The notes beneath the pieces are model-generated. The model worked only from the letters and a program-made list of their open reading frames with translations. It did no database searches and had not been told where the DNA came from. Source: Kushneria indalinina DSM 14324 (GTDB lineage: Bacteria; Pseudomonadota; Gammaproteobacteria; Pseudomonadales; Halomonadaceae). From it: a stretch of DNA of 37,903 nt. The position numbers were made by a program, and so were the translations under genes. Below, piece after piece: positions 1-21,380 of the stretch. The stretch spans positions 1-37,903 of the forward strand of contig NZ_QRDJ01000013.1 of NCBI RefSeq assembly GCF_003385845.1, given 5' to 3'. Position 1 is the first letter of the stretch; each line of letters starts with the position of its first letter.

Positions 1-167
1 GCCACGGCCGGCAAGCCGAAGGCGCGCACCGAGCGCAGCGAGAGGAGAAGGGGGCGGCAAGCGGAGCGCTGCAGGAGCGCAGCGACGGAGGAGCCCAGGG
101 ATCGTGACCGAAGGCCGGGACACGCGGGGGTTGGCGTGGCCCGGGGAGCGTAGCGAGTAGAGCCCGT
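1..167 (-). repeat. Long GC-rich repeat, copy A (partial)
   Basis: This is the right-hand ~167 bp of the repeat seen in full at 2467-3132 and 5293-5959; it matches them almost base for base up to the shared end AGAGCCCGT. The window begins inside the copy. The other full copies carry a promoter at their left end pointing left, so the missing part of this copy should drive a gene lying before position 1. Confidence 0.9.
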
Positions 168-183
168 TAAGGGCAGAGTGTGA

Positions 184-363: not shown

Positions 364-405
364 AAACGCCTCCCTCTTTACTGAATGAATTGGCCTTGCG
401 GTAAA

Positions 406-586
406 TCATAGCAAGTAGTTTTCAAATACTGGCCCGATCCAGTCCCAAGATACTGATACAGCGAAGAAAGCAGTTCCACCGTAAAACAGCGCAATACCGA
501 ACTGGCTTGTTACGATGCCTGTACAATGACGACAGCATAAGAATGCCAATGCCCAAAACCATGAAGAGGGCTGCAGTAGTAACCAT
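406..586 (-). CDS. Small hydrophobic protein, reading frame uncertain
   Basis: Two overlapping frames are open here. One starts at ATG 586 behind GGAAGG and encodes 54 aa (stop at 422); its first 20 residues (MVTTAALFMVLGIGILMLSS) look like a membrane helix, but its second half is cysteine- and arginine-rich and unlikely. The frame shifted by one base stays open to 406 and has a convincing second helix (FGIALFYGGTAFFAVSV). A single frameshift near 490-530 would join the two helices into a ~59-aa two-helix protein, much like its neighbour at 184-363. I see no slippery sequence. It may be a sequencing error, a decayed gene or an atypical protein. Confidence 0.35.
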
Positions 587-639
587 CCTTGATACCTTCC
601 TTGTTGGGCTGCCCCCCGCATGGCGAGGGGCAAAGGTGC

Positions 640-2439
640 TTATTTGAAAAAGCCGGGCACGACCTTGTTATCACTCATGACGCCATCCGCGTACTCAGCC
701 AGCTCGTCGCGCTTCATGCGACTATCAGTCCCGACTTCCAGGCGCTCGTTTTCGAGCATCCGCATAAGCTGTTTCTTATTCAGCCTGCCATAGAAGTTTT
801 CAGCATTGAGCATTTCAGCAGCATCCGCAGAAACATCATGCCCAATGTCATGCTGCATGCTTGAGAGCGGGCTATGCGACGGATCGTAGTGCTCACCGGC
901 AACGGCCCGAGACATGACATAAGCAAACATCTCAAGCAGGCGCGTCATATCAAGCGTCATCAGCCATTCAAGGACGTTTTCGCTGTCTTCCGGCAAACCC
1001 TCAAAAACAGTCTGGGCCTTGGCCTTGAGATCCTTGTAGCGGAGTGTGGCAGCGGCATATTGATCCACCTGTTCGATGTCATAAGCCTCGAACATTGCAC
1101 GTTGCACTCGCGGCCGCGAAAAGGAGTAGCGCTGGTAAAGGAAGTCGATATTGCTGGTGATATAGAGCGCAAGTGCTGATTTTGAATCGTCTGCCACCGC
1201 GCTTTGCAGTGCAAGCGTATGCATCGCACACATTGAATGGCGCACTGACTTTGAATAGGCAGACTTGTCATCGGTATCGGCACCAGGGGCATCATCACCT
1301 GCCTCATTACTGGATGCTTCATCATCAACACCGGCTGAAGTCTCGGGCTCTTCAGGGCGAATGATCCCACGACTTATTTTCAGTTCGCCGCTCCGGTCAA
1401 TGTGATAGGCCACACCGAAACGCATCTTGTCTTCATCCGTAAAGACAACCGTGAGATAGCGCGCCTCCGCCCTGTCGGCCAGCTCTTGCAGTTCATCAAG
1501 GTGCTTTTGAGTATCGTCGCTTTTGTCACCTGCTTCCTGCTGCGCCTGAAGCATCTCGATCTGCGAATGAAGGTTTAGCCAACGCTGATGATTTTCTACG
1601 CTATCCCATTCAGGATCGCGCTCATGAGTTTTCAGCGTCCAGAAGTGCTCGCACTCCTCAACCCATGCCCAGCCTTCTTCAGCAAGATCAGCCTCGACCT
1701 TAGAAACCGCGGATAAATAAAGCTGATCGAGTAGATCAGTGTTTTTGAACAAAACAGTGTCAGAAAAAAGGTCGCGTTCGATTTCGCCGCCGGCCGCAAC
1801 ATAGGCGGCCTCACCCACAAACAGGGCCTTTTGCTCCCTGCCGGTAACACCACGGCGCTGCCAGATTGAGCGAATCTGAAATGCCGAATGCCCCGCCTGC
1901 TCAAACACCTGAACCTGCGTTTCATGATCTTCAAAGAGCGCCAGCGCCTTCATTGTCTCAAGAGACACCTGATCTGCCCTGAATTTTTCCATCAGAGAGG
2001 GGGCAACTCTGCCCAACTTGAGAATTTGAGCAACGTGATTCTTGGAGTATCCGAAACGAGTGGCGATTTCGTCAGTAGAGCGCTTGCCTGAAATAGCTTT
2101 GAAAGCCTCGTACTGATCGGCAGGATGCATATCATTGCGCTGCGTATTTTCGACCAGCGATGCCTCTACCGCTTCATTCGTGGAAATGACTTTGCACTGC
2201 ACCGGGTAGCCCGCCCTGACTCGCTTTTGCGAGGCCAGTAGCTGAAGAGCCAAAAAGCGTGTCCCGCCGCCGGTGACGCCGTACTTTCCCCTGTGTTTAT
2301 GTACCACCAGATTTTGCAGCATCCCATGTGCGTCGATGCTCTCAGCCATCGACTCGATCGATTTCTGGGAGCGCTCGGTGCGCCGGGTCTGGTAAGGCGA
2401 CATTACAAGTTGCGAAAGAGGAATGGACTGCATCGTCAT
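640..2439 (-). CDS. Large ParB-like partition/DNA-binding protein
   Basis: A 599-aa ParB/Spo0J-type protein. Residues ~3-100 form the ParB N-terminal domain, with SPYQTR near residue 14 and the motif VENTQRNDMHPADQYEAF near residues 96-113 (the ENxQR box used for CTP binding and clamp formation in ParB). A helix-turn-helix follows at ~118-145 (STDEIATRFGYSKNHVAQILKL). The rest is a long acidic extension, with an Asp/Ser-rich linker near 375-400, far longer than chromosomal ParB (~300 aa); similar long versions occur on plasmids and integrative elements. The start at ATG 2439 has TAGGAG about 8 nt upstream. The promoter is in repeat copy B just upstream. No ParA partner lies beside it, so it may act as a regulator, nuclease-like accessory protein or half of a partition pair outside the window. 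Confidence 0.85.
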   Translation of the reverse strand: MTMQSIPLSQLVMSPYQTRRTERSQKSIESMAESIDAHGMLQNLVVHKHRGKYGVTGGGTRFLALQLLASQKRVRAGYPVQCKVISTNEAVEASLVENTQRNDMHPADQYEAFKAISGKRSTDEIATRFGYSKNHVAQILKLGRVAPSLMEKFRADQVSLETMKALALFEDHETQVQVFEQAGHSAFQIRSIWQRRGVTGREQKALFVGEAAYVAAGGEIERDLFSDTVLFKNTDLLDQLYLSAVSKVEADLAEEGWAWVEECEHFWTLKTHERDPEWDSVENHQRWLNLHSQIEMLQAQQEAGDKSDDTQKHLDELQELADRAEARYLTVVFTDEDKMRFGVAYHIDRSGELKISRGIIRPEEPETSAGVDDEASSNEAGDDAPGADTDDKSAYSKSVRHSMCAMHTLALQSAVADDSKSALALYITSNIDFLYQRYSFSRPRVQRAMFEAYDIEQVDQYAAATLRYKDLKAKAQTVFEGLPEDSENVLEWLMTLDMTRLLEMFAYVMSRAVAGEHYDPSHSPLSSMQHDIGHDVSADAAEMLNAENFYGRLNKKQLMRMLENERLEVGTDSRMKRDELAEYADGVMSDNKVVPGFFK

Positions 2440-2466
2440 CTTATAGCTCCTAGCCGTTTAAATCGC

Positions 2467-3132
2467 TCCGGGCGCGGTTGCCGCCGCTGGTGCCCGGTGG
2501 CCAGCCCCTCGCTGACCACCCCTGTATTATCGTTGATCCTGCCCTTTGTGTCAATACTGCCGTCATTTTATTTATCGGGTGATTGTCGGTATCAACCCCG
2601 GTTAATCAGGGCCAGGGGCTTGTGTTTCCGGGGTGCCGAGCATGCCTGGTGGAGGAGGGCTGGTGAGCGGTAGGGAAAGGGTGAAGCGGAAGCGCGGAGC
2701 GCTGACCACCCCTTTCCATCAGGCCGGGGCGCAGCTGCCCCTGCTGGGGCTGGTGATCATGCCCGGCGGTATCGGGAGGCGTCGCGGTAATACCCGACTG
2801 CGCCCGCGAGGAGGCGCGGTCAAACGATGGAGCGTATACCGGACCGAGCGGAGCGACAGGAGGATATGCCGCTCGAGCGCTTGACCGGACAAGCCGACGA
2901 TCGGGCGAGGTTCCAGGGTATTGCGGCGCCGGCACGGATACCGCCAATGATCACCCGCACAGGGGCGCGCCACGGCCGGCAAGCCGAAGGCGCGCATCGA
3001 GCGCAGCGAGAGGAGAGGGGCGGCAAGCGGAGCGCTGCAGGAGCGCAGCGACGGAGGAGCCCAGGGATCGTGACCGAAGGCCGGGACACGCGGGGTTGGC
3101 GTGGCCCGGGGAGCGTAGCGAGTAGAGCCCGT
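2467..3132 (-). repeat. Long GC-rich repeat, copy B (full, ~666 bp)
   Basis: A complete copy of the family, nearly identical by eye to 5293-5959. It fills the gap between the DUF4942 and parB-like genes. The end nearer parB carries a promoter and operator; the rest is GC-rich and holds at least four copies of the motif GAGCGNAGCGA with an AGGAG-like tail. Frames open through it are present only because of its composition, and I see no ribosome site for them. I read it as non-coding and regulatory or structural. No transposase or terminal inverted repeats are evident. Confidence 0.9.
2496..2554 (-). promoter_or_regulatory. Promoter and operator of the parB-like gene (repeat B)
   Basis: On the minus strand TTGACA (2549-2554) and GATAAT (2526-2531) are separated by exactly 17 bp, a near-perfect sigma70 promoter. 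The predicted transcript start is ~2519. Covering +1 to about +24 is an inverted repeat with 10-bp arms and a 5-bp spacer (GGTGGTCAGC ... GCTGGCCACC, one mismatch), placed as a repressor site would be. The same half-site (GCTGACCACCCCT on the plus strand) recurs at 2701-2713. Confidence 0.8.
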
Positions 3133-3172
3133 TGGGGCATTGGCTATTGAGCGGAATAGAGCTTTACCAGGT

Positions 3173-4003
3173 CTATCGACCCCGACCCCAATCCAATGCG
3201 TTCGGGTAGTGCTTGATCAAAATATCATTCAGCTTTTGGACCAAGTGAGGCTGCTTAAAGGTAATGTGGCCATTGCCATTTTTGAACCAGCGCATGTGCA
3301 AATAATCATTCTCGATTTCGGTTTTACGCTCCCATACCGCTTTCTGAAAAGCGGCATACATTCCATCGCGATGATCTGCCTGCGGCTTGTCGTCAGCGAT
3401 ATGAAAAAGGCGTAGAAGGTCATCCAGAATGTTTGACCGTCCGTGGTTTGCAGTGCCGTTGTCACTCAAAACGCTGCGTATGATGATCTTGTTGCCAAAC
3501 TTGAACGGCTGATTGGTTTTATGATCCCAGCTCAAATTTTTGAAGCAATTGATAATACCCTGTTCAACCATTGCGCCCCGACCGTCATACATCTGACCGA
3601 ACGTCGCCACAATGGCATCTTTTGTCAGCGCTGGAACGCCATCGCCATCGCCATCGCCATCGGCAAGAGCCTCTTCCCATTCCCGCCGCGTCTCAGCATC
3701 CATAAAGCTGCGCATACCGCTTTCTGACATAAGATGCTTCCAGCCTGAACTATCAACAATATGTGTGATTTTAGTCATGGCCCATGCTTTCTGAGCCTGG
3801 GAAGCATTGCTCAGGTTAACGGCGTCAGATCCCAGGATGCGCACCCTTTGATCAAAAATCAGCCTGGGCATTGCCATATTAGCCTTTGCGGCAATAGCGG
3901 ACGCTCGATCTATAGCATCAAAAGCCTGCTCCAAATGCTCGATGACAGCGGCACGCTGATTCACAATATTTTCAATACTGACGCTCTTGATGAGTTTGCT
4001 CAT
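3173..4003 (-). CDS. DUF4942 domain protein
   Basis: A 276-aa protein matching the plasmid family DUF4942, recognised by the C-terminal block containing WDHKTNQPFKFGNKIII, a LDDLLRLF helix and RWFKNGNGHITF followed by LVQKLNDIL. The molecular function is not established; family members sit on plasmids and integrative elements near antirestriction and ParB genes, as here. The start at ATG 4003 has GGGAGTAAGG upstream. Residues ~115-122 are a run of Asp-Gly pairs (DGDGDGDG) from a hexanucleotide repeat near 3639-3663, which may be length-variable. It is preceded by the promoter in repeat copy C and followed by copy B, so it looks like a single-gene transcription unit. Confidence 0.8.
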   Translation of the reverse strand: MSKLIKSVSIENIVNQRAAVIEHLEQAFDAIDRASAIAAKANMAMPRLIFDQRVRILGSDAVNLSNASQAQKAWAMTKITHIVDSSGWKHLMSESGMRSFMDAETRREWEEALADGDGDGDGVPALTKDAIVATFGQMYDGRGAMVEQGIINCFKNLSWDHKTNQPFKFGNKIIIRSVLSDNGTANHGRSNILDDLLRLFHIADDKPQADHRDGMYAAFQKAVWERKTEIENDYLHMRWFKNGNGHITFKQPHLVQKLNDILIKHYPNALDWGRGR

Positions 4004-4027
4004 CCTACCTTACTCCCTTTTACCAAT

Positions 4028-4214
4028 TCCGGGCGCGGTTGCCGCCGCTTGTTCCCGGTGGCCAGCCCCTCGCTGACCACCCCTGTATTATCGTTGTTCC
4101 TGCCCTTTGTGTCAATACTCCCGTCATCTTATTTATCAGGCAATGGCCGGTATCAACCCCGGTTGATCAGGGCCAGGGGCTTGTGTTTTCCGGGGTGCCG
4201 AGCATGCCCGGCGG
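4028..4214 (-). repeat. Long GC-rich repeat, copy C (left ~187 bp only)
   Basis: Only the promoter-bearing end of the family is present. It follows copies B and D, with scattered substitutions, from TCCGGGC to GAGCATGCC, then diverges into sequence resembling the leader of the neighbouring antirestriction gene. It is the most diverged copy, yet the promoter hexamers, their 17-bp spacing and the inverted repeat are unchanged. Confidence 0.85.
4057..4115 (-). promoter_or_regulatory. Promoter and operator of the DUF4942 gene (repeat C)
   Basis: TTGACA at 4110-4115 and GATAAT at 4087-4092 on the minus strand with a 17-bp spacer. The 10-bp-arm inverted repeat lies at 4057-4081 across the expected transcript start. 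Arms and hexamers match those of copies B and D although the flanking repeat has drifted. Confidence 0.8.
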
Positions 4215-4255
4215 CGCCGGATACGAGATGTGTGATGCATTGTGGTTCTCCTCTG
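4136..4255 (-). pseudogene. Orphan gene leader with ribosome site and ATG, body lost
   Basis: On the minus strand AGAGGAG is followed 7 nt later by ATG at 4240, but the frame runs straight into repeat copy C and stops after 34 arginine-rich codons at 4136. The segment 4230-4318 resembles 4757-4850, which carries the ribosome site and start of the antirestriction gene at 4319-4756. The simplest reading is a third cassette of the same type whose body, with the right part of repeat C, was deleted by recombination. Confidence 0.45.
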
Positions 4256-4318
4256 CAAAGGATCGACGCGCGGATGCGGCCGCGCGCCGATGGGGCGGGC
4301 CGTTTATCAACCCACGGG

Positions 4319-4756
4319 TCAGTTAAGTACGTCGCAAGTGGCGCAAAAGATCTGCTGGTGTTCGGGGTGCGCTCTGGCGTATTCCTCGAGCCGGTAATAG
4401 CGATCATGCATAACGTCGGCGCCAGTGTTCCACTGCATCAGGTAGTAGGCATACAGGCAGGCAGTGATACCGGCTGCATCCGGGCTCATGAAACCGACGT
4501 ACTCGCTGGCCCATATCAGGACATGCATGTCCTCGGTGCGCGTGGGGCGCATGTAGAAGCCGGCGTTATCCAGATCGAAGCACTCCAGCTCGCCGCCGTC
4601 GTAATCCCGGCTCATGCGCTGTAGCAGTGTTTGAACGGTTGGCACCACAAGCGCGTGATGGCGCTCGAAGTGACGCTTTAACTCCTCGGCGTGACGGGAG
4701 GGATCAATTTTTTCTGCCTGAACCAGGCGGGGATGAGTCATCTGGGCATAGCTCAC
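4319..4756 (-). CDS. ArdB/KlcA-type antirestriction protein, copy 1
   Basis: A 145-aa member of the ArdB/KlcA family, which protects plasmid DNA from type I restriction without mimicking DNA. The family core is clear: DYDGGELECFDLDNAGFYMRP near residues 51-72 and MSPDAAGITACLYAYYLMQW near 93-112. It is a diverged paralogue of the protein at 4848-5270. The start is GTG 4756 with GAGGAG 7 nt upstream. It lies second in a two-gene unit behind the promoter of repeat copy D. The N-terminal third is less conserved than in the neighbour, so it may have a different target or be partly decayed, though the frame is intact. Confidence 0.8.
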   Translation of the reverse strand: MSYAQMTHPRLVQAEKIDPSRHAEELKRHFERHHALVVPTVQTLLQRMSRDYDGGELECFDLDNAGFYMRPTRTEDMHVLIWASEYVGFMSPDAAGITACLYAYYLMQWNTGADVMHDRYYRLEEYARAHPEHQQIFCATCDVLN

Positions 4757-4810
4757 GGGCTGTCTCCTCTGCAGGGGATCAGGGCACGGATGCCGCCGCG
4801 TCCTGATGAG

Positions 4811-4833
4811 AGCGGGCCGCCGGGCGGCCCGCT
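4811..4833 (-). other. Strong hairpin between the two antirestriction genes
   Basis: AGCGGGCCGC and GCGGCCCGCT form a perfect 10-bp stem with a 3-nt loop. No T-run follows on either strand, so it is not a classical terminator. It may stabilise the upstream mRNA or reduce expression of the second gene. Confidence 0.5.
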
Positions 4834-4847
4834 GGTGAGTCGTTGGG

Positions 4848-5270
4848 TTAATCGATGGCGCGCATGATCAGCGACGATTCTTCATGATCCATCGCGTAGT
4901 CCCGCAGCGCGTGATAAAGATCGATGTGTTTGGTTGATCTTGTGATCCAGGTCAGATGGTTAATGGCGAACAAGCAGGCTGTGATGCCGGCCGCATCAGG
5001 GCTCATGGTCACGTCACAATAGTTATCCGGCACGCAAACGTGCATCTTCTCCTGCCCCTTTGGGTGCATGTAAAAACCGCCATTGGAAAGCTCGTAAAAC
5101 TCCCAAATGCCACCCTCATAGTCGGCACAAAGCTTCCGCATGTGCTGATTGATCATGACTTCCACCTGCAGATACTTCGAACCGAAGTAGGCGGGAAGGC
5201 AGTTTGTGCGGTGCGCATGAGGAACTGCGGTCGCGGTAATGACGGGCTCAGTTGATTCAACTTCTGACAT
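4848..5270 (-). CDS. klcA: ArdB/KlcA-type antirestriction protein, copy 2
   Basis: A 140-aa protein with the full ArdB/KlcA core: LPAYFGSKYLQVE near residue 25, DYEGGIWEFYELSNGGFYM near 50-68 and MSPDAAGITACLFAINHL near 88-105. ArdB/KlcA proteins block type I restriction in vivo and help conjugative plasmids establish in new hosts. The start at ATG 5270 is chosen because AAGGAG lies about 8 nt upstream; an upstream in-frame codon near 5345 would put the start inside repeat copy D. It is the first gene after the copy D promoter and is followed by the paralogue at 4319-4756. It is closer to the typical family than the paralogue. Confidence 0.88.
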   Translation of the reverse strand: MSEVESTEPVITATAVPHAHRTNCLPAYFGSKYLQVEVMINQHMRKLCADYEGGIWEFYELSNGGFYMHPKGQEKMHVCVPDNYCDVTMSPDAAGITACLFAINHLTWITRSTKHIDLYHALRDYAMDHEESSLIMRAID

Positions 5271-5292
5271 TTTGACTTCTCCTTTAGCCGAT

Positions 5293-5959
5293 TCCGGGCA
5301 CGGTTGCCGCCGCTTCTGCCCGGTGGCCAGCCCCTCGCTGACCACCCCTGTATTATCGTTGATCCTGCCCTTTGTGTCAATACTGCCGTCATCTTATTTA
5401 TCGGGTGATTGTCGGTATCAACCCCGGTTAATCAGGGCCAGGGGCTTGTGTTTCCGGGGTGCCGAGCATGCCTGGTGGAGGAGGGCTGGTGAGCGGTAGG
5501 GAAAGGGTGAAGCGGAAGCGCGGAGCGCTGACCACCCCTTTCCATCAGGCCGGGGCGCAGCTGCCCCTGCTGGGGCTGGTGATCATGCCCGGCGGTATCG
5601 GGAGGCGTCGCGGTAATACCCGACTGCGCCCGCGAGGAGGCGCGGTCAAGCGATGGAGCGTATACCGGACCGAGCGCAGCGACAGGAGGATATGCCGCTC
5701 GAGCGCTTGACCGGACAAGCCGACGATCGGGCAAGGTTCCAGGGTATTGCGGCGCCGGCACGGATACCGCCAATGATCACCGGCACAGGGGCGCGCCACG
5801 GCCGGCAAGCCGAAGGCGCGCATCGAGCGCAGCGAGAGGAGAGGGGCTGGCAAGCGGAGCGCTGCAGGAGCGCAGCGACGGAGGAGCCCAGGGATCGTGA
5901 CCGAAGGCCGGGACACGCGGGGTTGGCGTGGCCCGGGGAGCGTAGCGAGTAGAGCCCGT
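5293..5959 (-). repeat. Long GC-rich repeat, copy D (full, ~667 bp)
   Basis: A full copy, almost identical by eye to 2467-3132, filling the gap between the klcA-like gene and the end of the seven-gene operon. Its left end carries the promoter and operator for the klcA pair. It ends at AGAGCCCGT 14 bp before the stop codon of the upstream gene. The near identity of B and D against the drift of C implies recent duplication or gene conversion. Confidence 0.9.
5322..5380 (-). promoter_or_regulatory. Promoter and operator of the klcA pair (repeat D)
   Basis: TTGACA at 5375-5380 and GATAAT at 5352-5357 on the minus strand with 17-bp spacing; the inverted repeat with 10-bp arms is at 5322-5346. Layout is identical to copies B and C, so all three units should be switched by one regulator. 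Confidence 0.8.
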
Positions 5960-5972
5960 CAGGGGCGCAAGG

Positions 5973-6317
5973 TTAGGATGGTAAAAACTCATGGATGACT
6001 GGAAAGCTGTTCGGACTCGATTCGGAGCGGCACAGCCAGCCCATGTGCAAGCGGTAGCCCAGAACATGGCCAGCCATTTCAGTTTCCAACGCCCGGACTT
6101 CTTCTTTTTTGGCCAAAAGGTAGTCCTCATTATCAAGTGCCCGCGTCACGTAGTCCCACAATGAAATGTATAGCGAATGCTCTGCAATTTCTGATCGCCA
6201 AAGGGTCGAAGAGCGTGAATCGAGAACCTTGCGCACCAAAACTTCTGCTTCGCAGAAATCTCCTCGCACCACGGCTTTTAGACGATCTGCCAGATGTTCA
6301 AGAGAATTCCTATCCAC
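5973..6317 (-). CDS. Hypothetical protein (114 aa)
   Basis: Not recognised. It starts at GTG 6317, with AAGGAG about 8 nt upstream, and overlaps the end of the preceding 58-aa gene by 8 bp. It is predicted soluble and mostly helical, rich in Leu, Glu and Arg, without membrane segments or clear motifs; two Cys (22 and about 95) are far apart. It is the last gene of the seven-gene unit and ends 14 bp from repeat copy D. The overlap suggests translational coupling and a job linked to the small upstream proteins. Confidence 0.6.
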   Translation of the reverse strand: MDRNSLEHLADRLKAVVRGDFCEAEVLVRKVLDSRSSTLWRSEIAEHSLYISLWDYVTRALDNEDYLLAKKEEVRALETEMAGHVLGYRLHMGWLCRSESSPNSFPVIHEFLPS

Positions 6318-6486
6318 TGCAGGACTCCTTTTTCAGGCTGGGGTGGTCCGCCCAGCAGTAACGATCCGAGTCCGCCCTGAGCCCAACGCTGGCAGCTGCT
6401 GCAACAAGACCACGCTTTATATCCCCTTCGCTCTTGTCACCCCAATAGTCTTTATCGTCTTCATAGAGTTCGCAAATGTTGATCAT
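6310..6486 (-). CDS. Small hypothetical protein (58 aa)
   Basis: A short gene starting at ATG 6486 that overlaps the stop of the upstream zinc-ribbon gene (ATGA) and itself overlaps the GTG start of the next gene. GGAGA lies ~8 nt upstream. The N-terminus is acidic (NICELYEDDKDYWGDK), followed by a short helix and a C-terminus containing RYCWAD. I do not recognise it. The tight overlaps on both sides and the ribosome site are the evidence that it is real. Confidence 0.55.
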   Translation of the reverse strand: MINICELYEDDKDYWGDKSEGDIKRGLVAAAASVGLRADSDRYCWADHPSLKKESCSG

Positions 6487-6749
6487 GAGCTTTCTCCGGG
6501 TGATCGATTGGCATCAGTTTGAGGAGACCATCGGTGTTTGGTGGGCTTTAAGGTAACGCGCGGCCATTTAAAGCCCTCTCGATGAATCCGGCCGTCAATA
6601 TCGAAGATTAAAGCCTCTTCGCAGGCTGGGCAGGAAGTTGGATAGCAATCACTCCCGGTCAGGTTCTCAAGGGGCGCATCCAACACTTGAGCGCGCCCGC
6701 ATGAGGGGCAAGCGAAAGCGATTCGATCTGGCCATTCCATGGCTTTCAT
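6483..6749 (-). CDS. Zinc-ribbon protein (88 aa)
   Basis: An 88-aa protein with two CxxC knuckles, CPSCG near residues 14-18 and CPACE near 40-44, spaced as in a zinc ribbon, followed by an acidic-hydrophobic stretch (ALIFDIDG) and a basic proline-containing tail. Such ribbons bind nucleic acid or hold a protein fold; the family is not recognised. It starts at ATG 6749 overlapping the stop of the ATPase gene (ATGA), so it is probably translated with it. A later Met at residue 4 is possible. Confidence 0.65.
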   Translation of the reverse strand: MKAMEWPDRIAFACPSCGRAQVLDAPLENLTGSDCYPTSCPACEEALIFDIDGRIHREGFKWPRVTLKPTKHRWSPQTDANRSPGESS

Positions 6750-7207
6750 TGCACGGAGGTAGAAGCGCTAGCGCGAACCAGCCCTACGCGAAGGGCATGC
6801 AAGCAGTCGTTGAGCGCGCCCTCCATAAAACGCTTCACTTCTGCTGGGGTGAAATCCATATTAGATTTTTCTGAGAGGGAATGGCTGTAAATAAGAGTGT
6901 TTTCGGCAAGCACATCTTGCCAATAAGAATCTACAGTTGTCTGACCGACAAGAATTACCGCTTTGATATCAACCCCATTTTGAACAAGGGATTCGATGCG
7001 CTTTAGCCACTCCAGGGCTAATTTGCCGCCATGGCGGTGGGAGTGGTCAAGAATGATGATTGAGCCATCAAGGCCATGAACATCAATATCCTGTTCTTTT
7101 TCCAAATCGACAACGTGTACATCAGGTTTTTCCTGATTACTGATGTATTTCTCTATGGCTAAACTCTTGCCCGCGCCCGTAGGCGCAACGATTCTTCCAA
7201 TGTTCAT
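6746..7207 (-). CDS. Small P-loop ATPase (153 aa)
   Basis: A 153-aa protein beginning almost at once with a Walker A motif, APTGAGKS at residues 8-15, and a Walker-B-like strand, GSIIILDH, near residues 49-56. A further strand, KAVILVGQT, near 83-91 may be the sensor. The C-terminal third is helical. It is far smaller than most AAA+ proteins and resembles a minimal P-loop core that probably works with a partner; the neighbouring membrane proteins are candidates. The start at ATG 7207 has GGAGAAG ~6 nt upstream. The exact family is not recognised; phage or plasmid packaging-type ATPases (Zot-like) are an alternative. Confidence 0.65.
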   Translation of the reverse strand: MNIGRIVAPTGAGKSLAIEKYISNQEKPDVHVVDLEKEQDIDVHGLDGSIIILDHSHRHGGKLALEWLKRIESLVQNGVDIKAVILVGQTTVDSYWQDVLAENTLIYSHSLSEKSNMDFTPAEVKRFMEGALNDCLHALRVGLVRASASTSVQ

Positions 7208-7245
7208 TTTTTACTTCTCCGCGAATTCTAAACCGATGAAAAGTT

Positions 7246-7383
7246 TCAATAACGATCAGCGTGATCGCTGGTTTCTGGATCGCCGCGCTTAACAATGAGA
7301 AGCACAACAGGCATCCATGCCAAGAGAGCAGCCCAGACCCACCAAGGGGCGTTCTGCAGGTAAAAGGGATCAACAAGCGGCAT
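7246..7383 (-). CDS. Single-helix membrane peptide (45 aa)
   Basis: A 45-aa protein starting at ATG 7383 with GAAAGGA about 9 nt upstream. Residues ~13-32 (PWWVWAALLAWMPVVLLIV) form one tryptophan-rich membrane helix, followed by a charged tail rich in Asp and Arg (KRGDPETSDHADR). The helix begins after a short N-terminus and the positive KR follows it, so the C-terminus is probably cytoplasmic. It lies between a larger membrane-anchored protein and the P-loop ATPase and could be a small subunit of the same complex. Confidence 0.6.
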   Translation of the reverse strand: MPLVDPFYLQNAPWWVWAALLAWMPVVLLIVKRGDPETSDHADRY

Positions 7384-7418
7384 TTGAAAAATCCTTTCGG
7401 GTTGATGGTGTTTTGAGA

Positions 7419-7805
7419 TCACCCAAAAATTTGAGTGAGGATCGGCCCTGCAATGAACCAGCCAAAGACAGCTGCAAAGAGCATGGACAACACAGTCCAA
7501 TTAAAGGACGCAATGGTCCAATTAAATCCTTGCCCCGACTGGCGTACAGCTTCATTTTCATTCTTACCTGACTCAGCGGTTGGTAGATCGGGCCAGCTGC
7601 CGCCGTAAAGCATGATGCGCTCGATGGAGTATGCAGGGCGTTCAACATCAAAGGCACCCCAATAGCGCTTTACTCCTTCGACTCTGGTATCGATTACCTG
7701 GATGAAAGCGTAAGTGCCGCTGTCATTTCGGCTATGGATACACTTGCACTCGGAACGCCGGTCGTCATACAGCAGGCCATCGAGTTCAATACGAATAATC
7801 GACAT
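7419..7805 (-). CDS. C-terminally anchored membrane protein (128 aa)
   Basis: Not recognised. The N-terminal ~95 residues look like a small soluble beta-rich domain (MSIIRIELDGLLYDDR...) with two Cys near residue 21, and the last ~25 residues (VLSMLFAAVFGWFIAGPILTQIF) form a tail anchor. ATG 7805 is chosen because it lies just outside the upstream gene's stop (7819); an in-frame GTG at 7844 would overlap it. No ribosome site is strong for either. The position before the 45-aa helix and the ATPase suggests a membrane-linked complex. Confidence 0.6.
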   Translation of the reverse strand: MSIIRIELDGLLYDDRRSECKCIHSRNDSGTYAFIQVIDTRVEGVKRYWGAFDVERPAYSIERIMLYGGSWPDLPTAESGKNENEAVRQSGQGFNWTIASFNWTVLSMLFAAVFGWFIAGPILTQIFG

Positions 7806-7818
7806 GGACAGGCCCCTA

Positions 7819-8382
7819 TCAGCGGCTGGGATAATCGTCTTCACCAGTTACCGGGATGGTGCCGGTGTATGCAGCGCCAGTAATTGTGCGCAGCCCCCAT
7901 TCCGCCGGAACGTCTCCCCCGCTCTGAATATGCTCAAGGATCTCTACATCGCGGTCGTTTTCCGAACATCCTTTAGGGGCATTTTTTCGGGCACAGCGCA
8001 ACATCACATCAATGACTGCCAGGCGCGCTCCAGGGCGAACAACACGGGAGAACGCCCCTTGGTAATCCCTTACATGCAGCAGGGAGGCAACAGTCTCCCA
8101 GTTCTCATGAAAGTCGATTTCTTCTGCAGCGCCTTCCGGCGGAGCCTTTCTTAACTCCTCGGCGCCGTAAAGGGCCGACAACAGCGCCATGCCTTCTGAT
8201 TCGCCAATGCAATCATCTACCGATGTGAAGTCGGGCAGCTCGTCCCGCAGCAGCTGGACATAAGCACATGCCAACATGAGATCCTCTGGGATCAATGAGG
8301 TGCGCACCCCATAGAACTCATCCTTGAGGAGGGAGTAGTGGTGCGTAAGTTTTACGATGCGCGACTCGTTCAACCTATCCAT
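7819..8382 (-). CDS. Hypothetical protein (187 aa), first gene of operon
   Basis: A 187-aa predicted soluble, acidic, mainly helical protein; no known motif recognised. It starts at ATG 8382 with a weak AAAGGG upstream and is the first gene of a seven-gene unit running to 5973, separated from the plus-strand genes by an AT-rich spacer that should hold its promoter. Two Cys around residues 131-140 (RCARKNAPKGC) could be a metal or redox pair, but nothing more supports this. Confidence 0.6.
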   Translation of the reverse strand: MDRLNESRIVKLTHHYSLLKDEFYGVRTSLIPEDLMLACAYVQLLRDELPDFTSVDDCIGESEGMALLSALYGAEELRKAPPEGAAEEIDFHENWETVASLLHVRDYQGAFSRVVRPGARLAVIDVMLRCARKNAPKGCSENDRDVEILEHIQSGGDVPAEWGLRTITGAAYTGTIPVTGEDDYPSR

Positions 8383-8694: not shown

Positions 8695-8725
8695 TTCTGC
8701 CCTTACAGCTTTCCTACCTCCTTAC

Positions 8726-8872: not shown

Positions 8873-8944
8873 GTTGATAGAAAATCAATCAAGTCAGATG
8901 ACTTGGCTGTTGTTCGCCTTCACTTTTGGTAACGGTATATCGAT

Positions 8945-9654: not shown

Positions 9655-9684
9655 CCCAAAAAAACGGCCCGAAGGCCGCTTTTT
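9655..9684 (-). terminator. Terminator of the rep gene
   Basis: CGGCC-CGAA-GGCCG hairpin (9665-9678) just after the rep stop codon; on the minus strand it is followed by seven T. A five-T run follows on the plus strand too, so it can act in both directions and shield the origin from transcription. Confidence 0.8.
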
Positions 9685-10582
9685 AGTCATTAATACATTT
9701 TTGTGCGATCGGAGGCGGAGATTGTTTCAGGGATAGCCCGCCTGTGATCAGTTCTACGCGCGCTTGAGGATATACAGTCAAAACTTGTTTCAGCGATTCC
9801 TTGAACTTCCTCTTGAAGCTGCGTTCGGAGTCCTTGCCGGTATACTCCTGCCCAAACTGCTCTCGCAGGTTTTTCCAATAAACGCGCACTGGTTTGCCGC
9901 TGATACGATAAAGGCGATGAGCAAGCCAAAAATAGATATCCAGTGCCAGCGATGACCCGCCTAGCGCTTCAAGTGCGCGGTTGTCCAATGGTACGGCGGA
10001 TCGCTCAAGCTCGTTGAAGTAGCCTTCGCTCAGGATCATGACTCCTGGCCATCTATAATTGCCATGTATACCGTTATCGTTAATCCATGCGTCAAACTGC
10101 TCAACAGGTTGACCGTTGAACGTTCTTCCTTGGTATCCAATCTGGATTCTGCAGGCAGCTAGCGCATTGATCTGAGTTCTTAGGTTTTTCAGTGTCGTGC
10201 CGGCATATGATTTTCCGATCAAGGAAAGAAATTCGTATGCGGAATTGCCAGTTGGGATCTCTCTCGTCTTATGGCGCTTTGCATACGTCGTTATCCACGC
10301 CATCGTGAGCCGTGGCGTTACGCCATAGGGTACTGGTTGAGCTACTGGAGTGTTGTCACCTTCATCCAGATACCCTGCCTGTACATTGATCCAGGCATCA
10401 CCACAACGGCGCATAAACTCCCGCTCAGCTACCTTGGATCGAGGCAGTCCTACTTGGCAGAGGATCGCATTGTTGAATGCCATATCGTTCGGAGAAGGCG
10501 GGGTTTCTTCAATTTTCAATCCGGTGTCGATCAGTTTGCGTTGATTTTTTGTAATTTTCATCGATGGCTTGCTATCGGTCAT
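9683..10582 (-). CDS. repA: Plasmid replication initiator, RepA (RPA family)
   Basis: A 299-aa initiator of the plasmid RepA/RPA type (PF04796-like). Recognisable blocks are FNNAILCQVGLPRS near residues 36-49, the segment PYGVTPRLTMAWITTYAKR near 85-103 with a following T/S-x-E-I-P-x-GNSAYEFL block, and a C-terminal winged-helix-like region with LDIYFWLAHRLYRI near 213-226. It should bind the iterons at 9505-9625 and recruit DnaA and DnaB. ATG 10582 overlaps the stop of the resolvase gene (ATGA), so translation of the two is coupled. Length is normal for the family. No partner helicase or primase is nearby. Confidence 0.85.
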   Translation of the reverse strand: MTDSKPSMKITKNQRKLIDTGLKIEETPPSPNDMAFNNAILCQVGLPRSKVAEREFMRRCGDAWINVQAGYLDEGDNTPVAQPVPYGVTPRLTMAWITTYAKRHKTREIPTGNSAYEFLSLIGKSYAGTTLKNLRTQINALAACRIQIGYQGRTFNGQPVEQFDAWINDNGIHGNYRWPGVMILSEGYFNELERSAVPLDNRALEALGGSSLALDIYFWLAHRLYRISGKPVRVYWKNLREQFGQEYTGKDSERSFKRKFKESLKQVLTVYPQARVELITGGLSLKQSPPPIAQKCIND

Positions 10583-11181
10583 GCCTCGCCCTCCCCTTTG
10601 CTCTGCGTTTCATTAGGCGATTTCGGTTTAACGCCACCCGGGAAATACCTGTATAGCGTGGTGCGTGATATGCCAAATCTCTTTGCAACGTCACTGACCT
10701 TCATGCTGGGATCGCTTAGTAGAATCCCCATGCTATGTATATCGTCCTTGCTAAGCCCTTTGGGGCGCCCTCCTACACGGCCACGCGCCCGCGCGGATTC
10801 TAAGCCTTCGCGAGTTTTTTCACTGATCCATGCTCTCTGCCAATCAGCCATGACCGCCAAAAAGTTGATGTGAAGCCGGCCGGTGGCCGTATGTTGATCG
10901 ATGTTGTCTTGGATGGATTCAATCTGGACCCCTTCGCCCTGCAGCTGGTTGACCAGTTCTACAAGATGGATCAGGGAGCGGCCCAGCCGGTCCAAGCTCA
11001 AAACAACAACGGTGTCGTCGGGTCTGATAGTCATTAAAAGCTTTTCTAGCTCCGGACGATCTTTGCGGGCACCAGATATGCGCTCTTGAAAGATGCGCTC
11101 ACACCCAGCTTTTTCTAGGGCATCAATCTGGCGCTCAATTCGCTGATCTTCACGGCTTACTCGGGCGTAACCTATTCTCAT
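10579..11181 (-). CDS. Serine recombinase (resolvase/invertase family)
   Basis: A 200-aa small serine recombinase. It begins MRIGYARVS, with the catalytic serine at residue 9; ISGARKDRPELEKLL (35-49) and VVVLSLDRLGRSL (58-70, with the conserved RS pair) complete the active site. The E-helix segment normally AEFERELI is here ADWQRAWI, then SEKTREGLESARARGR and GGRPKGL lead into a C-terminal helix-turn-helix (MKVSDVAKRFGISRTTLYRYF). The role is probably multimer resolution for plasmid stability. It has an AGAGG ribosome site and is coupled to repA. No transposase or Tn3 ends are nearby, so it appears domesticated by the plasmid. Confidence 0.9.
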   Translation of the reverse strand: MRIGYARVSREDQRIERQIDALEKAGCERIFQERISGARKDRPELEKLLMTIRPDDTVVVLSLDRLGRSLIHLVELVNQLQGEGVQIESIQDNIDQHTATGRLHINFLAVMADWQRAWISEKTREGLESARARGRVGGRPKGLSKDDIHSMGILLSDPSMKVSDVAKRFGISRTTLYRYFPGGVKPKSPNETQSKGEGEA

Positions 11182-15972: not shown

Positions 15973-18900
15973 TCACTCCATACCGTGATCATGATCTTTT
16001 TTGTTGGGAGCAGTCTCATGTGCATGAGGTTTAGTTGCTATTTCATAATCGATCATTAACTCCATCGCTTTATCATAAGTTTGCTTGTCAGCTGGATCGA
16101 TCTGGGGCTCGGTGCCATTTTTCGCAGCTTTTGTATGCGCTTGAGCTATATTCTGGTCGGCAGTAATGACCTGTTGTGCCAAAGAATCCTTATAGGCAGC
16201 AGAAGCGTTTTTATCAGCTAGAATATCGTTCGATGGGTGCTTTAAATCTTGGCCGCGAGCTTTGGCGCTGTTCGTAAGCATTTCTTCTCTTAACCCCATG
16301 AATTTGTCATGAGTGAAACGATCAGCACTTTCGGCAGTGGCATGTCGAAACATTTCCTTCGAGTACATCGATTCGAGTTTGTCATTACCAAAATGCTTGG
16401 ACGGGTATGATTCACCGCTCATGGTGGCCTCTGTTACATCCCTGACTCCCTCAAGATCCCTCGCCCTGGCCTTCTCTCTTTCAGCCAAGCTGTTTTCAGT
16501 TGCAGTATTTGTACTTTCCGTTGCGCCTGTATCGGCTGTGCCCGCATTCGCTGTCGCACCTGTGGCCGCCGTTGCGCCTGTATCGGCTGTGCCTGCATTC
16601 GCTGTCGCACCTGTGGCCGCCGTTGCGCCTGCGTCTGCTCTCGGTGTCGCGCCCTGCCCTTTTTGACCATAAGAGTCATTCGCTGGTGCTGTAACGCCTG
16701 ACTCGTTGGGAGTGCTTCCCATTTCTGCTTTTCTGATTTCGTTTTGATGCTCCCGCAGCTGTTCCAGCTTTTCATTCATCTTGCTGTCAGAGAACGAAAC
16801 ATCGAGGTTGTTATCTGCTGCAGATTGAACAATTTTATCCTTGAAGTCTTGAGAGCCATTAATATCAAGGTTTTTACCGTACCTGTTAACGGCGTATGAA
16901 AGAGTAACGTCTACCAATTTTTGGTCCTTGGTGTTTTTTCCAAAAGAAAGATAGTCGCCATGATCTCTGAAAACAGTTGAGCCCTGATAAGAAAAATCAG
17001 CGCCATGCTTGTTTTTCTTAATATCGAGCTGACCCACTTTAAGCGACGTTTTTTGAGAGTTTTCAAAAGAATTTTCAAGATTCTTTTTAAGATTTTCTAC
17101 TCCTGCGCTTCGGTTATCGCCGGTGTAATCGATGCCGATAGGCCGAATAGAGTTTTTATGTGAATAAAACTCCTTATCTTTTTTTCGCTGATCTTGAGAG
17201 TTGGTGTCTTTCTGTTTTTCGTATGCTTCAAGGTTTTGCATGGTGTGAACCTCTTCTTTTCCAAAAGGACGAATAGAATTTCTAATAGAGTGAATTGTAT
17301 CTCGCTCATAATCTTTCAGACTGTCCATCTGTGTCATTTTGGAGCGAGTTGCCAGTGCAAGTTTATAAGCTTGCTCTGGCTTCGAGAGCCGTTGTTCACG
17401 GATGTTGCGTTTATTATTATAATATCTGTCGAGGACATTTTGTCGTTGTAAACGTAAATCGGTTTTGAATTCCTTTAAGGAATTTTTCATTTCATTGTTA
17501 CGTTTCTTGTAGTCCTCGTTGAACGTTTTCCAATGGTTTTTTACTTCTGGTAGATTGCGGACTCTGAAAGTCTTATTCTCAGATTCGTCACTATGCAACT
17601 TCTCAAGTACATTTTTTGCTTCTGGCCAGCTCAGGTTTAAACGCTTAGTTAAAAAATCGCTGTTAGAATAATTTCTATTGCCTGTTTTTATGCGGGGTTC
17701 GCCAGACTTGTTTCGAGTAGAGTGAAAATCCTTGCTATCAAGGTTGTACTGCTCCACTGCATAAGCCAATACCCGCGAAGCGGAAATATTATTATTCAAT
17801 TTGTTAATCGAGACAGAGTTATCGGGCTTGTTGGAGGTAGCGTTTTGGGTCAGCTGACTGATATAGCTGTCCGCTTGTTTAAAGCGGCTCGAAGTCGTAT
17901 TTATTCCTCCCAATCCGGGGCCAGTTCCTCGCCCTCCTCTTCCTCCAGATAAAGCCCGTCGCAGTCCATCATCTTGATCTGCTCCTCTTCCTTGGGAGTG
18001 TAAGTGTGTGTGTGCATGACCATGCAATAGTTGTAGAGTCCGTCCTTGGTTTTGTACCAGAGTGCTTTTTTGCAACTTTTGCAAACTGTCTGTTCGGGGG
18101 TGATGAGGGAGTTCTGTTCTTCTAGTGCTAACACGACTTCGCTGGTTGTTGGACGATCTACGGTCTGTTCTGACTGGTCGCTCGGCCCCTCCTGCTGATC
18201 GCTCGGCTCCTCCTGCTGATCGCTCGGCTCCTCCTGCTGATCGCTCGGCTCCTCCTGCTGATCGCTCGGCTCCTCCTGCTGATCGCTCGGCTCCTCCGGC
18301 GGAATGATTTCTTCTTCGTGGATATCTGCCATTAAAATGCTCCTCTGAATAATTATGTTTCTGGTAAAAGCTATTGGCGCGCTGTCTGAGAAAACTGTTT
18401 TTTTCTCGATTTTCTAAATTCGAGTATTCGGAACGTACACCTTTAGAGGCGTCTGCTACGTATTTTATTTCCAGCGATCTAGTGTTTCGCCAGTAATCAA
18501 GAACACGGTTGTTTTGCTCCTCATTGAAATGAAGTTTGCCTTCGTCTAAAAAATCTTTTCGGAAAATGCTTTCTCTGAGGTTCGTAAACTGTTTTTGACC
18601 TTCAAATTTCACAGCCAAATGCTCAGTATCACGCCCAGCATTTCTGATGCGAACTTCGCCAACTTCTTTCAATGAATCAATAAAGCTTGAATAGCTCTGG
18701 TCTTTCGATATTTCAAGTGCCTTTTGTTTTAGTTGGTTGGCATTACTTTTGCTGCCAGATAGCTCATTGCCATATCTGGCAATGGCTTCAGTCTTGCCTT
18801 TTAAAACGTCTCGCTTGTTTTCATCGGGAGACTCTAAGCCGAAGCGGTGGTTTATATCGGCTTGTATCGAGTTGAAATAATCTACGTTTGATTGGTGGCG

Positions 18901-19332
18901 ACCTATCGGATTGAGCCGACCGTCACTGACTAAATTCCTTTTGGGAATGACAATATGAATATGGGGGTATCTTTCATCCATCGTATCAGTTGATGGATTG
19001 TAGATATTCTGGAGCTTGGGTCGATGAACTTCGGCATAATAATTGTATTCATCATCTTTATAAGCCGACATCAGATTGTTCACGTAGGTATCCGTGACCT
19101 TGCAAAGAGTGTCATGGTCGATCTCTTTTTCTTTGAAAGAGAGAGTGACATGCAAGTATCGTTCTTGCCCACGGTCTGCGATACTATCAATAACTGATTC
19201 TGTCAGTGATAGATTGCCGTAAATGATTTCACGCTTATCCATATCGTCGCGGGAATAATGGCGGCCGGATTTCATGCCTTCGCGCAAATATTCCCCAATG
19301 CCAGATTTTCCGCCAGATATGCGAGCCAACAT
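15973..19332 (-). CDS. Conjugative relaxase with LPD7-like domain
   Basis: An 1119-aa relaxase that should nick oriT and lead the transfer strand. The N-terminal domain has candidate catalytic tyrosines at 15, 26 and 38, RYLHVTLSF at 58-66, H103 and the metal-binding pair YPHIHIVIP at 122-130 (H124, H126), the three-histidine arrangement of MobA/TraI-type relaxases. Residues ~344-384 are six GGAERSA repeats; ~520-680 is coiled and basic; ~790-870 is the LPD7-like domain; ~900-960 is an Ala/Thr/Gly-rich linker from a 51-bp DNA repeat. It ends histidine-rich (HAHETAPNKKDHDHG). ATG 19332 lies 1 nt after the stop of the MobC-like gene, so translation is coupled. A separate gene is nested at 17901-18332 in another frame. 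Confidence 0.88.
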   Translation of the reverse strand: MLARISGGKSGIGEYLREGMKSGRHYSRDDMDKREIIYGNLSLTESVIDSIADRGQERYLHVTLSFKEKEIDHDTLCKVTDTYVNNLMSAYKDDEYNYYAEVHRPKLQNIYNPSTDTMDERYPHIHIVIPKRNLVSDGRLNPIGRHQSNVDYFNSIQADINHRFGLESPDENKRDVLKGKTEAIARYGNELSGSKSNANQLKQKALEISKDQSYSSFIDSLKEVGEVRIRNAGRDTEHLAVKFEGQKQFTNLRESIFRKDFLDEGKLHFNEEQNNRVLDYWRNTRSLEIKYVADASKGVRSEYSNLENREKNSFLRQRANSFYQKHNYSEEHFNGRYPRRRNHSAGGAERSAGGAERSAGGAERSAGGAERSAGGAERSAGGAERPVRTDRRSSNNQRSRVSTRRTELPHHPRTDSLQKLQKSTLVQNQGRTLQLLHGHAHTHLHSQGRGADQDDGLRRALSGGRGGRGTGPGLGGINTTSSRFKQADSYISQLTQNATSNKPDNSVSINKLNNNISASRVLAYAVEQYNLDSKDFHSTRNKSGEPRIKTGNRNYSNSDFLTKRLNLSWPEAKNVLEKLHSDESENKTFRVRNLPEVKNHWKTFNEDYKKRNNEMKNSLKEFKTDLRLQRQNVLDRYYNNKRNIREQRLSKPEQAYKLALATRSKMTQMDSLKDYERDTIHSIRNSIRPFGKEEVHTMQNLEAYEKQKDTNSQDQRKKDKEFYSHKNSIRPIGIDYTGDNRSAGVENLKKNLENSFENSQKTSLKVGQLDIKKNKHGADFSYQGSTVFRDHGDYLSFGKNTKDQKLVDVTLSYAVNRYGKNLDINGSQDFKDKIVQSAADNNLDVSFSDSKMNEKLEQLREHQNEIRKAEMGSTPNESGVTAPANDSYGQKGQGATPRADAGATAATGATANAGTADTGATAATGATANAGTADTGATESTNTATENSLAEREKARARDLEGVRDVTEATMSGESYPSKHFGNDKLESMYSKEMFRHATAESADRFTHDKFMGLREEMLTNSAKARGQDLKHPSNDILADKNASAAYKDSLAQQVITADQNIAQAHTKAAKNGTEPQIDPADKQTYDKAMELMIDYEIATKPHAHETAPNKKDHDHGME
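16520..16632 (-). repeat. 51-bp tandem repeat inside the relaxase gene
   Basis: Units begin at 16520 and 16571 and a partial third at 16622; they differ at one visible base. Each encodes 17 residues of the type GATAATGATANAGTADT, a flexible linker. The length is a multiple of three, so copy-number change keeps the frame. Confidence 0.85.
17901..18332 (-). CDS. Overprinted acidic zinc-knuckle-like protein nested in relaxase
   Basis: A 143-aa frame on the same strand as the relaxase but shifted by one base, lying wholly inside relaxase codons ~334-477. ATG 18332 has AGAGGAG ~7 nt upstream, a better ribosome site than the relaxase itself. The protein has an acidic N-terminus, six copies of SDQQEEP (residues ~15-55), then a folded-looking part: CKSCKKALWYKTKDGLYNYC, then HTHTYTPKEEE, MMDCDGLYLEEEEGE and a tryptophan near the end. 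The Cys pairs and His could bind metal. In the relaxase frame the same DNA gives a low-complexity Arg/Gly/His-rich linker, which implies that the nested gene is the constrained one. Partner or regulator of the relaxase by position, similar in layout to mobB within mobA of IncQ plasmids. Confidence 0.7.
   Translation of the reverse strand: MADIHEEEIIPPEEPSDQQEEPSDQQEEPSDQQEEPSDQQEEPSDQQEGPSDQSEQTVDRPTTSEVVLALEEQNSLITPEQTVCKSCKKALWYKTKDGLYNYCMVMHTHTYTPKEEEQIKMMDCDGLYLEEEEGEELAPDWEE
18180..18300 (-). repeat. 21-bp tandem repeat read in two frames
   Basis: About six units of 21 bp (GCTCGGCTCCTCCTGCTGATC on the plus strand is one unit less a shared base pattern). Since 21 is divisible by three, the array gives GGAERSA in the relaxase frame and SDQQEEP in the nested frame. 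Confidence 0.9.
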
Positions 19333-20651: not shown

Positions 20652-21380
20652 ATGGCAGCAAAAGTAACAATCAAACAGGTAGCAGACAAAAAAGTCGTTG
20701 TTTTTGGTTTTAGCGGTAATGTTGGAAAAACCGTGATTGCCAGCGAATTACTCTACCCTAGAATTAAAAATGCAGAGTTTTACAGCATTGAAACTATTAA
20801 TAGTGATAGCACTCACGGTGAAAAACTTGCTGGCAATCAGTTCAGTGAATTGCTTGAAGCAATTGAAATGTCAGATTCCTGTGTTGTTGATGTGGGATCT
20901 TCTAATATTGAAGCTTTCCTTACAAGAATGAGATCTTTTAAGAACAGCCATGAAGAAATTGATTATTTCGTAATTCCCGTAACTCCTAGTTCTAAAGAAA
21001 TGCGTGACTCAGAAGCTTTAATTGATTATATTTTAGAAATGGGAATTCCTAAAAATAAAATAAAAGTCGTTTTCAACAAAGTTGAAAGAGATTTTTCTAA
21101 TCCGGCATCGGAATTGGCTTTTTTCAAAAACTCAATCGCTGAGGAAATAGCAGGAAACAATCCTCCAGTTGTTTACCTTTCTGACTATTACCCGATGCTT
21201 CGAGACTCTGAGAAAACCCATAGCGAAGTAATCAGCGATACTAGGGACTTCAATGCCCTTAAGAAATCAGCAGAAACTAAGGATGCACGTTTTCAAATTG
21301 TACTTGAGAAAAAACTGCAGCAGGCTGGCCTTAGTGCCGAAGAGGATCTAGCTAGTGCTTTTACGGCTTTAAAACTATAA
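20652..21380 (+). CDS. stbB: StbB-like ParA-superfamily ATPase
   Basis: A 242-aa ATPase recognised by the StbB-type opening VVVFGFSGNVGKTVIASELLYPR, in which GFSGNVGKT (residues ~19-27) is the P-loop, followed by SIETINSD and the strand SCVVDVGSSNIEAFL (residues ~78-91) as Walker B region. FVIPVTPSSKEMRDS is the switch that precedes the base-recognition strand IKVVFNKVE. Family members act in plasmid stability and in balancing conjugation against stable inheritance. The ribosome site AAAGGTAA precedes ATG 20652. It is co-transcribed with the StbA-like gene and the membrane protein that follows. Confidence 0.8.
   Translation: MAAKVTIKQVADKKVVVFGFSGNVGKTVIASELLYPRIKNAEFYSIETINSDSTHGEKLAGNQFSELLEAIEMSDSCVVDVGSSNIEAFLTRMRSFKNSHEEIDYFVIPVTPSSKEMRDSEALIDYILEMGIPKNKIKVVFNKVERDFSNPASELAFFKNSIAEEIAGNNPPVVYLSDYYPMLRDSEKTHSEVISDTRDFNALKKSAETKDARFQIVLEKKLQQAGLSAEEDLASAFTALKL

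Follow-up and report, generated by a model that had tools for sequence, protein, structure and literature searches.

Plasmids of the IncN2 group carry a regulon of 'conserved upstream' (CUP) elements, in which each operon has an ArdK site and a promoter, and an inversion in these plasmids has been attributed to CUP–CUP recombination (PMC5371602), as has the loss of a 5.2-kb CUP region (PMC3490853). CUP-type promoters are repressed by ArdK, a member of the KorA family (PMC9723621, PMC6289460). The protein of the IncW plasmid R388 binds TTGACA direct repeats at the −35 (PMC9723621), and that of an IncN plasmid binds a CUP-like site and represses through it (PMC6289460). In R388, ArdK represses five promoters, its own included, and conjugation is followed by an overshoot of the network (PMC3937220). 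Here, we describe a repeat in a 37,903-nt stretch of Kushneria indalinina DSM 14324 (the window, i.e., bases 1–37903 of the 41,077-bp contig C8), which is very probably a CUP-type module of an ArdK-repressed establishment regulon that would burst upon entry into a new cell.

The window holds two full long copies of the repeat on the minus strand, one at 2467..3132 ahead of a parB-like gene and one at 5290..5965 ahead of a klcA-type gene, with 658 of 676 aligned columns identical and 10 gap columns. The long copy is composed of a proximal promoter and leader module of ~128 bp and a GC-rich distal extension of ~550 bp. A short, promoter-proximal partial copy (4026..4214, minus strand, 93% over 189 bp) precedes a DUF4942 gene, and the distal end of another long copy (1..173, minus strand, 96%) is truncated by the contig edge. 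The repeat described in an earlier, sequence-only reading of this DNA is thus real and stands before the three genes named there. Its ~666-bp unit holds for the long copies; the unit common to all copies is the ~128-bp promoter and leader nested within them, and a second KlcA/ArdB-type gene (4319..4756, minus strand) has no module of its own. Each of the three copies carries TTGACA and GATAAT at a 17-bp spacing on the minus strand, as that reading had also stated: at 2526..2554 in the module of the parB-like gene, at 4087..4115 in the DUF4942 module and at 5352..5380 in the klcA-type module. These are the top three sigma-70-like promoter sites of window positions 1–9500, with 11 of 12 letters each. 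The number of promoter-like sites in that interval lies within chance (9 versus 6.6 ± 2.6 in shuffles), and the significance of the repeat therefore comes from its having been copied rather than from site number.

The extent of this copying was revealed by a search of the K. indalinina genome with the repeat, which returned 18 matches, every one on contigs C8, C10, C11 and C12. In all four contigs, the first bases are the repeat's distal end and the last ones lie inside its promoter half, from which we infer a single plasmid split by the assembler at near-identical repeats. The promoter missing at the left edge of the window therefore sits across an assembly break, in line with the earlier expectation of a fourth copy whose promoter lies beyond that edge. 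Together, the plasmid contigs hold 13 full promoter modules, all on a single strand and each directly ahead of a start codon, which supports the proposal that a single regulatory module was copied to form a multi-gene regulon.

The order of elements within the module is ATGACGG--GTATTGACA (including the −35), 17 bp, the −10 GATAAT, a 23-nt hairpin 1, hairpin 2, a ribosome-binding site (RBS) and the start codon. TTGACA-17-GATAAT, a sigma-70-type promoter as judged by its letters, is present in 13/13 modules, across which ATGACGG and GTATTGACA do not vary either. Hairpin 1, located at the predicted transcript start, is exact in 12 of the 13; the module at C10:3291 has no hairpin 2, and a degenerate copy at C12:1717-1765 retains both hairpins with no promoter-like site. 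Within the window, hairpin 1 occupies 2497..2519, 4058-4080 and 5323-5345, and the hairpin 2 core GCGGCGGCAACCGC lies at 2474..2487, 4035-4048 and, ending in CCGT, 5300-5313, all on the minus strand. The core occurs 10 times in the 3.75-Mb genome, always on plasmid contigs (reversed-pattern control: 1).

The window modules head genes for a ParB_N/HTH_ParB protein of 599 aa (640..2439), a DUF4942 protein (3173..4003) and a KlcA/ArdB-type antirestriction protein (4848..5270), all on the minus strand; the start of the last was set at the ATG past the leader, the listed open reading frame (ORF) starting at 5345. On the remaining contig parts, module-headed genes encode DUF932, RadC and other proteins without a Pfam match. 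A DUF4942 gene likewise follows the same type of leader in the Pseudomonas shirazica plasmid CP075568.

To compare the module with elements of other plasmids, a covariance model (CM) was built solely from the 13 K. indalinina modules, with a short calibration. In the IncN plasmid pN-Cit, which was chosen since the leader matched it four times, the model recognized five elements located upstream of genes (E 6.5e-10 to 7.5e-6); these five are taken as CUPs because of where they lie and how they are built in the record of an IncN plasmid, whose gene table names no CUP. The same plasmid encodes a TrfB-related protein (ArdK family), ssb and DUF932, and has three long copies of about 430–500 bp. Pairs of copies are alike over ~560 bp in pCT14 and over ~640 bp in a P. 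aeruginosa plasmid, so that the 'far larger modules' which the sequence-only reading had singled out are shared with CUP relatives. A distal copy in NAH7 was considered as a further long copy and dropped, a toxin–antitoxin pair lying between one of the two copies and the nearest module. The similarity of the distal extension to the Pseudomonas long copies (~70% over 95 nt, equaled by 2 of 100 block shuffles) is only suggestive of kinship. Separately, window positions 5849-5958, at the distal end of the long repeat, resemble unannotated plasmid DNA of Roseibium (~110 nt, 76%) and Jannaschia (69 nt, 80%).

Related modules were also found in Marinobacter. When the genome collection was screened with a DNA pattern joining the promoter to hairpin 1, 10 stretches were returned, all from this genus (three named species and one metagenome-assembled genome), and the CM matched 10/10 of these loci, which had been preselected by the module pattern. 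The modules lie mostly close to contig ends (loci L036-L045); one precedes an antirestriction gene (L038:227-646, Pfam E 5.5e-16) and further ones precede other ORFs. Hairpin 1 is similar there in sequence, yet only one of six unique leaders folds below p 0.05, compared with 25/25 in eight other plasmids, in a test based on mononucleotide shuffles and hand-picked leaders. The CGGCAA hairpin 2 is absent from the Marinobacter leaders listed, where the second hairpin differs. A search of plasmids with a leader of the Pseudomonas type gave 829 places across 179 records (E ≤ 0.01); among the 40 matches listed, 39 overlap no annotated feature and one falls in a record without annotation. Plasmid matches by blastn at E ≤ 10 (206 records for the module, 254 for a 76-nt piece) contain chance matches and hence were not relied on.

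A hidden Markov model (HMM) of five ArdK/TrfB proteins was searched against 1067 ORFs, drawn from contigs C8-C14 and from the Marinobacter loci. Its only matches at E ≤ 10 were C8:38868-39230 (E 1.4e-10) and C11:545-925 (E 1.6e-10); none was found by this model in the Marinobacter stretches. For C11:545-925, hhalign gave Prob 95.4 and E 1.9e-8, versus Prob 0.13 for a control helix-turn-helix protein, and its top PDB matches were the ArdK structures 7BCA and 7BBQ, at a weak E of 0.04. Both homologue genes lie downstream of modules (C11:1513 and C8:40636) within same-strand gene runs, and are therefore placed like an autoregulated repressor. The putative site of action is an ArdK-type direct repeat, ATGACGGNNGTATTGACA, which overlaps the −35 at 2549..2566, 4110-4127 and 5375-5392 on the minus strand and is invariant among the modules, with 12 bp from TGAC to TGAC. 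By analogy with R388 it is a candidate ArdK operator, the TGAC spacing differing between plasmids and the second TGAC being sometimes absent.

According to the scheme we propose, the module would combine a sigma-70-type promoter, a candidate direct-repeat operator over the −35 and a two-hairpin leader that reaches the RBS. Two KorA/ArdK-family proteins, expressed from module-headed gene runs, would keep the modules repressed in an established cell. Upon entry into a repressor-free cell, all modules would fire at once, and antirestriction and other establishment proteins would be made in a burst that lasts until ArdK builds up. The probable role of hairpin 1, placed at the 5' end, is to stabilize the transcript, and that of hairpin 2 is to act on how each cistron is translated or processed. 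The distal extension probably serves to insulate adjacent operons and probably also favors recombination in the region.

Several observations weigh against this scheme. The TGAC spacing is 12 here versus 10 in R388 and 11 in the Pseudomonas relatives, and the second TGAC is absent from the IncN element and the one NAH7 promoter compared. The ArdK homologues are distant: C11:545-925 reaches only E 0.04 by phmmer and has zero Pfam matches at E ≤ 0.01, and the Pfam KORA match of C8:38868-39230 (E 0.089) falls under the cut-off. Among 151 genomes of the family, the CM matched a single one, that of K. indalinina itself, and a type IV secretion system (T4SS) region separates the module genes from the presumed origin of transfer (oriT). 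R388 StbA also represses most ArdK-controlled promoters (PMC3937220), and a Stb-type protein could therefore be the second or even the main repressor here. Finally, the plasmid is known here from its sequence alone: the module, its copying, its kinship to IncN elements, the ArdK homologues, the gene content and the hairpin covariation were computed, while we infer ArdK binding, repression, burst timing, the roles of the hairpin RNA and insulation.

Three other explanations of the repeat were considered. If transfer follows the general rule, beginning upstream of mobC with the relaxase gene last to enter, the plus strand would be the transferred strand (T-strand) and the template of all module genes. 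The antirestriction, ParB-like, DUF932 and RadC genes would suit an Frpo/ssi-type promoter, in which the incoming T-strand would form a hairpin bearing both boxes, −35 and −10, and would be transcribed ahead of second-strand synthesis. Such folding was unsupported by the plus-strand DNA folds predicted for 6 of the 13 modules, which never pair either box wholly (paired bases at the −10: 0, 0, 0, 0, 2 and 1; at the −35: 0, 0, 0, 4, 4 and 0) and whose energies are close to those of shuffles (z −1.83 to 0.16). The module moreover contains a canonical duplex promoter, and its R388 relatives are repressed by ArdK as duplex DNA (PMC9723621), which leaves the Frpo/ssi explanation unlikely.

The near-identity of the long copies at several sites would also fit an ordinary mobile or selfish element whose outward promoter is incidental. 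Against this, the seven ORFs in or overlapping the long copies have zero Pfam matches at E ≤ 1, with no transposase found, in keeping with the earlier reading; the promoter end always lies directly ahead of a start codon in a single orientation, and the short copies retain the regulatory part only. We consider a mobile element highly improbable. An IncP-like KorA/KorB control, with the ParB-like protein (640-2439) as a KorB-type repressor that binds the repeats, has in its favor that the plasmid carries klcA-type genes together with a ParB-family protein. Yet the relatives of this protein, in the best 25 of at least 5000 records, are ParB/RepB/Spo0J-type or hypothetical plasmid genes at ~30% identity, its gene is itself headed by a module, and ArdK homologues are present; this explanation is very unlikely. 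The likeness to kil-kor control drawn by the sequence-only reading is near in that ArdK belongs to the KorA family, but it is not the best match, as the modules match IncN elements and ArdK homologues are encoded. The CUP-type module of an ArdK-repressed regulon thus remains the explanation we favor.

The leader was next analyzed as an RNA. In a 215-kb sample composed of the K. indalinina plasmid stretches and six plasmid loci, GGCGGCAACC occurs 48 times, with both flanking pairs in 41, and by a permissive criterion, an RBS-like string and a start codon come after each of the 41 paired hairpins. On deposited annotation, counted with R388 included and the K. indalinina plasmid excluded, a coding sequence starts 22-43 nt downstream of 26/36 paired hairpins, versus 1/9 unpaired ones and 5.1% of random positions. 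Two-sided changes were seen at seven of the eight stem pairs in 23 unique rows selected for the two inner pairs being formed (shuffle mean 3.0; 0/1000 reach 7). When rows were selected by RBS and start codon only, 7.13 of 8 pairs were observed versus 6.27 upon permutation (0/2000), whole 3' arms being swapped and register choice permitted; both shuffles leave the relatedness of rows in place. The CGGCAA loop stays constant across the inner stems GCGG/CCGC, GAGG/CCTC, ACGG/CCGT and GGGG/CCCC. Within the 13 K. indalinina copies alone (A1), covariation is weak (term −0.28) because these copies are too alike, and it is informative only across plasmids.

A promoter-like site lies 20-115 nt upstream of 35 of 47 paired hairpins (11 from the K. 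indalinina plasmid, 36 from others) and is absent from 12, namely one in the K. indalinina plasmid, two each in pN-Cit, R388 and the P. syringae plasmid, one each in pCT14 and the P. aeruginosa plasmid, and three in that of P. shirazica; none of three NAH7 copies lacks a promoter. One of the two in R388 sits within a gene on the wrong strand. The promoterless copies point to an RNA rather than a promoter function. Promoterless sites are located at L047:20747 and 26569 (the latter retaining hairpin 1), L049:13925, L050:10964, L051:14547 and 17486, L052:10802, 11088 and 14389, and L053:22231. In R388 (L053), hairpin-2-like copies on the minus strand at 23532, 22231, 22000, 21028, 19525 and 18442 stand ahead of leading-region genes, including ardC and the ssb operon.

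Rfam scans of plasmid loci (L011-L013 and L052-L053 at E ≤ 1, L047-L051 at the gathering threshold; the window and the Marinobacter loci were left out) found no family at threshold on the leader. A sub-threshold match to ctRNA_pGA1 (E 0.34, L053:26882-26935) lies on the opposite strand and overlaps a hairpin-2-like copy of R388. The exact GCGGCGGCAACCGC string was not found in the literature searched, and the excerpts of the CUP/ArdK literature searched hold no description of the leader as an RNA; the words 'hairpin', 'stem-loop' and 'leader' occur 0 times in PMC3937220. The 1997 CUP paper by Delver and Belogurov may describe these hairpins, and three consensus sequences that a figure legend in PMC5371602 places, without naming them, in the promoter-proximal regions of CUPs could be the hairpins seen here. 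An undescribed structured mRNA leader common to the establishment regulons of the K. indalinina plasmid, IncN, IncW, IncP-9, pCT14-like and P. syringae plasmids, with hairpin 2 as a post-transcriptional control element, is a serious though tentative possibility. If true, translation of the entire establishment program at entry could be under the control of a single protein, a small RNA or a feature of the ribosome.

Beyond the regulon, the window is part of an IncN-like conjugative plasmid. RepA (9683..10582, minus strand) is 62% identical to that of pN-Cit, the adjoining resolvase (10579..11181, minus strand) is 40% identical to the equally placed pN-Cit recombinase, and a StbB-like protein (20652..21380, plus strand) is 38% identical over 148 aa to IncN StbB. 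An LPD7-domain relaxase (15973..19332, minus strand) is accompanied by its MobC/NikA-like partner (19334-19690), and oriT is presumed to lie upstream of 19690. Pfam matches identify VirB4-, VirB6-, VirB10- and VirB11-type T4SS genes and a coupling protein. A 180-bp tandem repeat family is present at 14127-14525 and 37683-37901, with a run of N at 37904-37995 next on the contig; a 219-nt stretch is 100% identical at 14127 and 37683, in the same orientation and 23.6 kb apart, flanking the relaxase and T4SS region, and these repeats are possible module junctions. Tandem repeats of 7 bp and 23 bp lie on the 3' side of repA (9213-9593), where the 23-bp units might be iterons, and others occur within the relaxase gene at 16518-16631 and 18174-18297 (51 bp and 21 bp).

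The CUP–ArdK switch is known from enterobacterial and pseudomonad plasmids with a MOBF relaxase; our results extend it to a plasmid with another relaxase type, and show related modules in Marinobacter. The promoter module and hairpin 2 offer a sequence handle for unannotated establishment and anti-defense genes, and raise the question of why one hairpin loop right before the RBS recurs in mRNAs of several plasmid groups.

IncP-1 kil-kor control uses operators, not a copied promoter–leader module. It is similar to the present case in that few repressors serve many promoters, and KorA and ArdK are of the same family (PMC9723621). The candidate RNA STAXI (RF01728) likewise occurs near ssb and antirestriction genes (PMC2864571) but is built of tandem pseudoknots, and it was not among the Rfam matches of the loci scanned. 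The Frpo/ssi promoters of F-like plasmids also lie upstream of leading-region anti-defense genes (PMC11541004); they act via folded single-stranded DNA, whereas the K. indalinina module is not predicted to fold in this way. In the pLS20 family of Bacillus, a 400-600-bp region (EGeRS1) and a promoter with operator and two short inverted repeats (EGeRS2) are copied before establishment operons (PMC8708921). This likeness is one of description: these plasmids are Gram-positive, the EGeRS2 repressor is Reg and EGeRS1 has no strong sigma-A promoter.

The R388 regulon shares with the K. indalinina plasmid a direct repeat at the −35 (the operator TTGACA-N4-TTGACA in R388, a candidate operator here), hairpin 1 at both promoters checked and hairpin 2 ahead of leading-region genes, and differs in the spacing of the direct repeat. 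For the IncN CUP–ArdK system, the papers treat pKM101/R46 and IncN2 plasmids, and pN-Cit is the plasmid compared here. The differences lie in the LPD7-type relaxase, versus MOBF, in the T4SS region placed between stb and the regulon, and in the 13 promoter modules (five CM matches in pN-Cit), two ArdK homologues and another candidate operator. In both, a repeated upstream module with promoter, two hairpins and RBS precedes establishment genes on one strand in long and short copies, accompanied by a TrfB/ArdK-family gene, DUF932, RepA next to a resolvase and stb genes.

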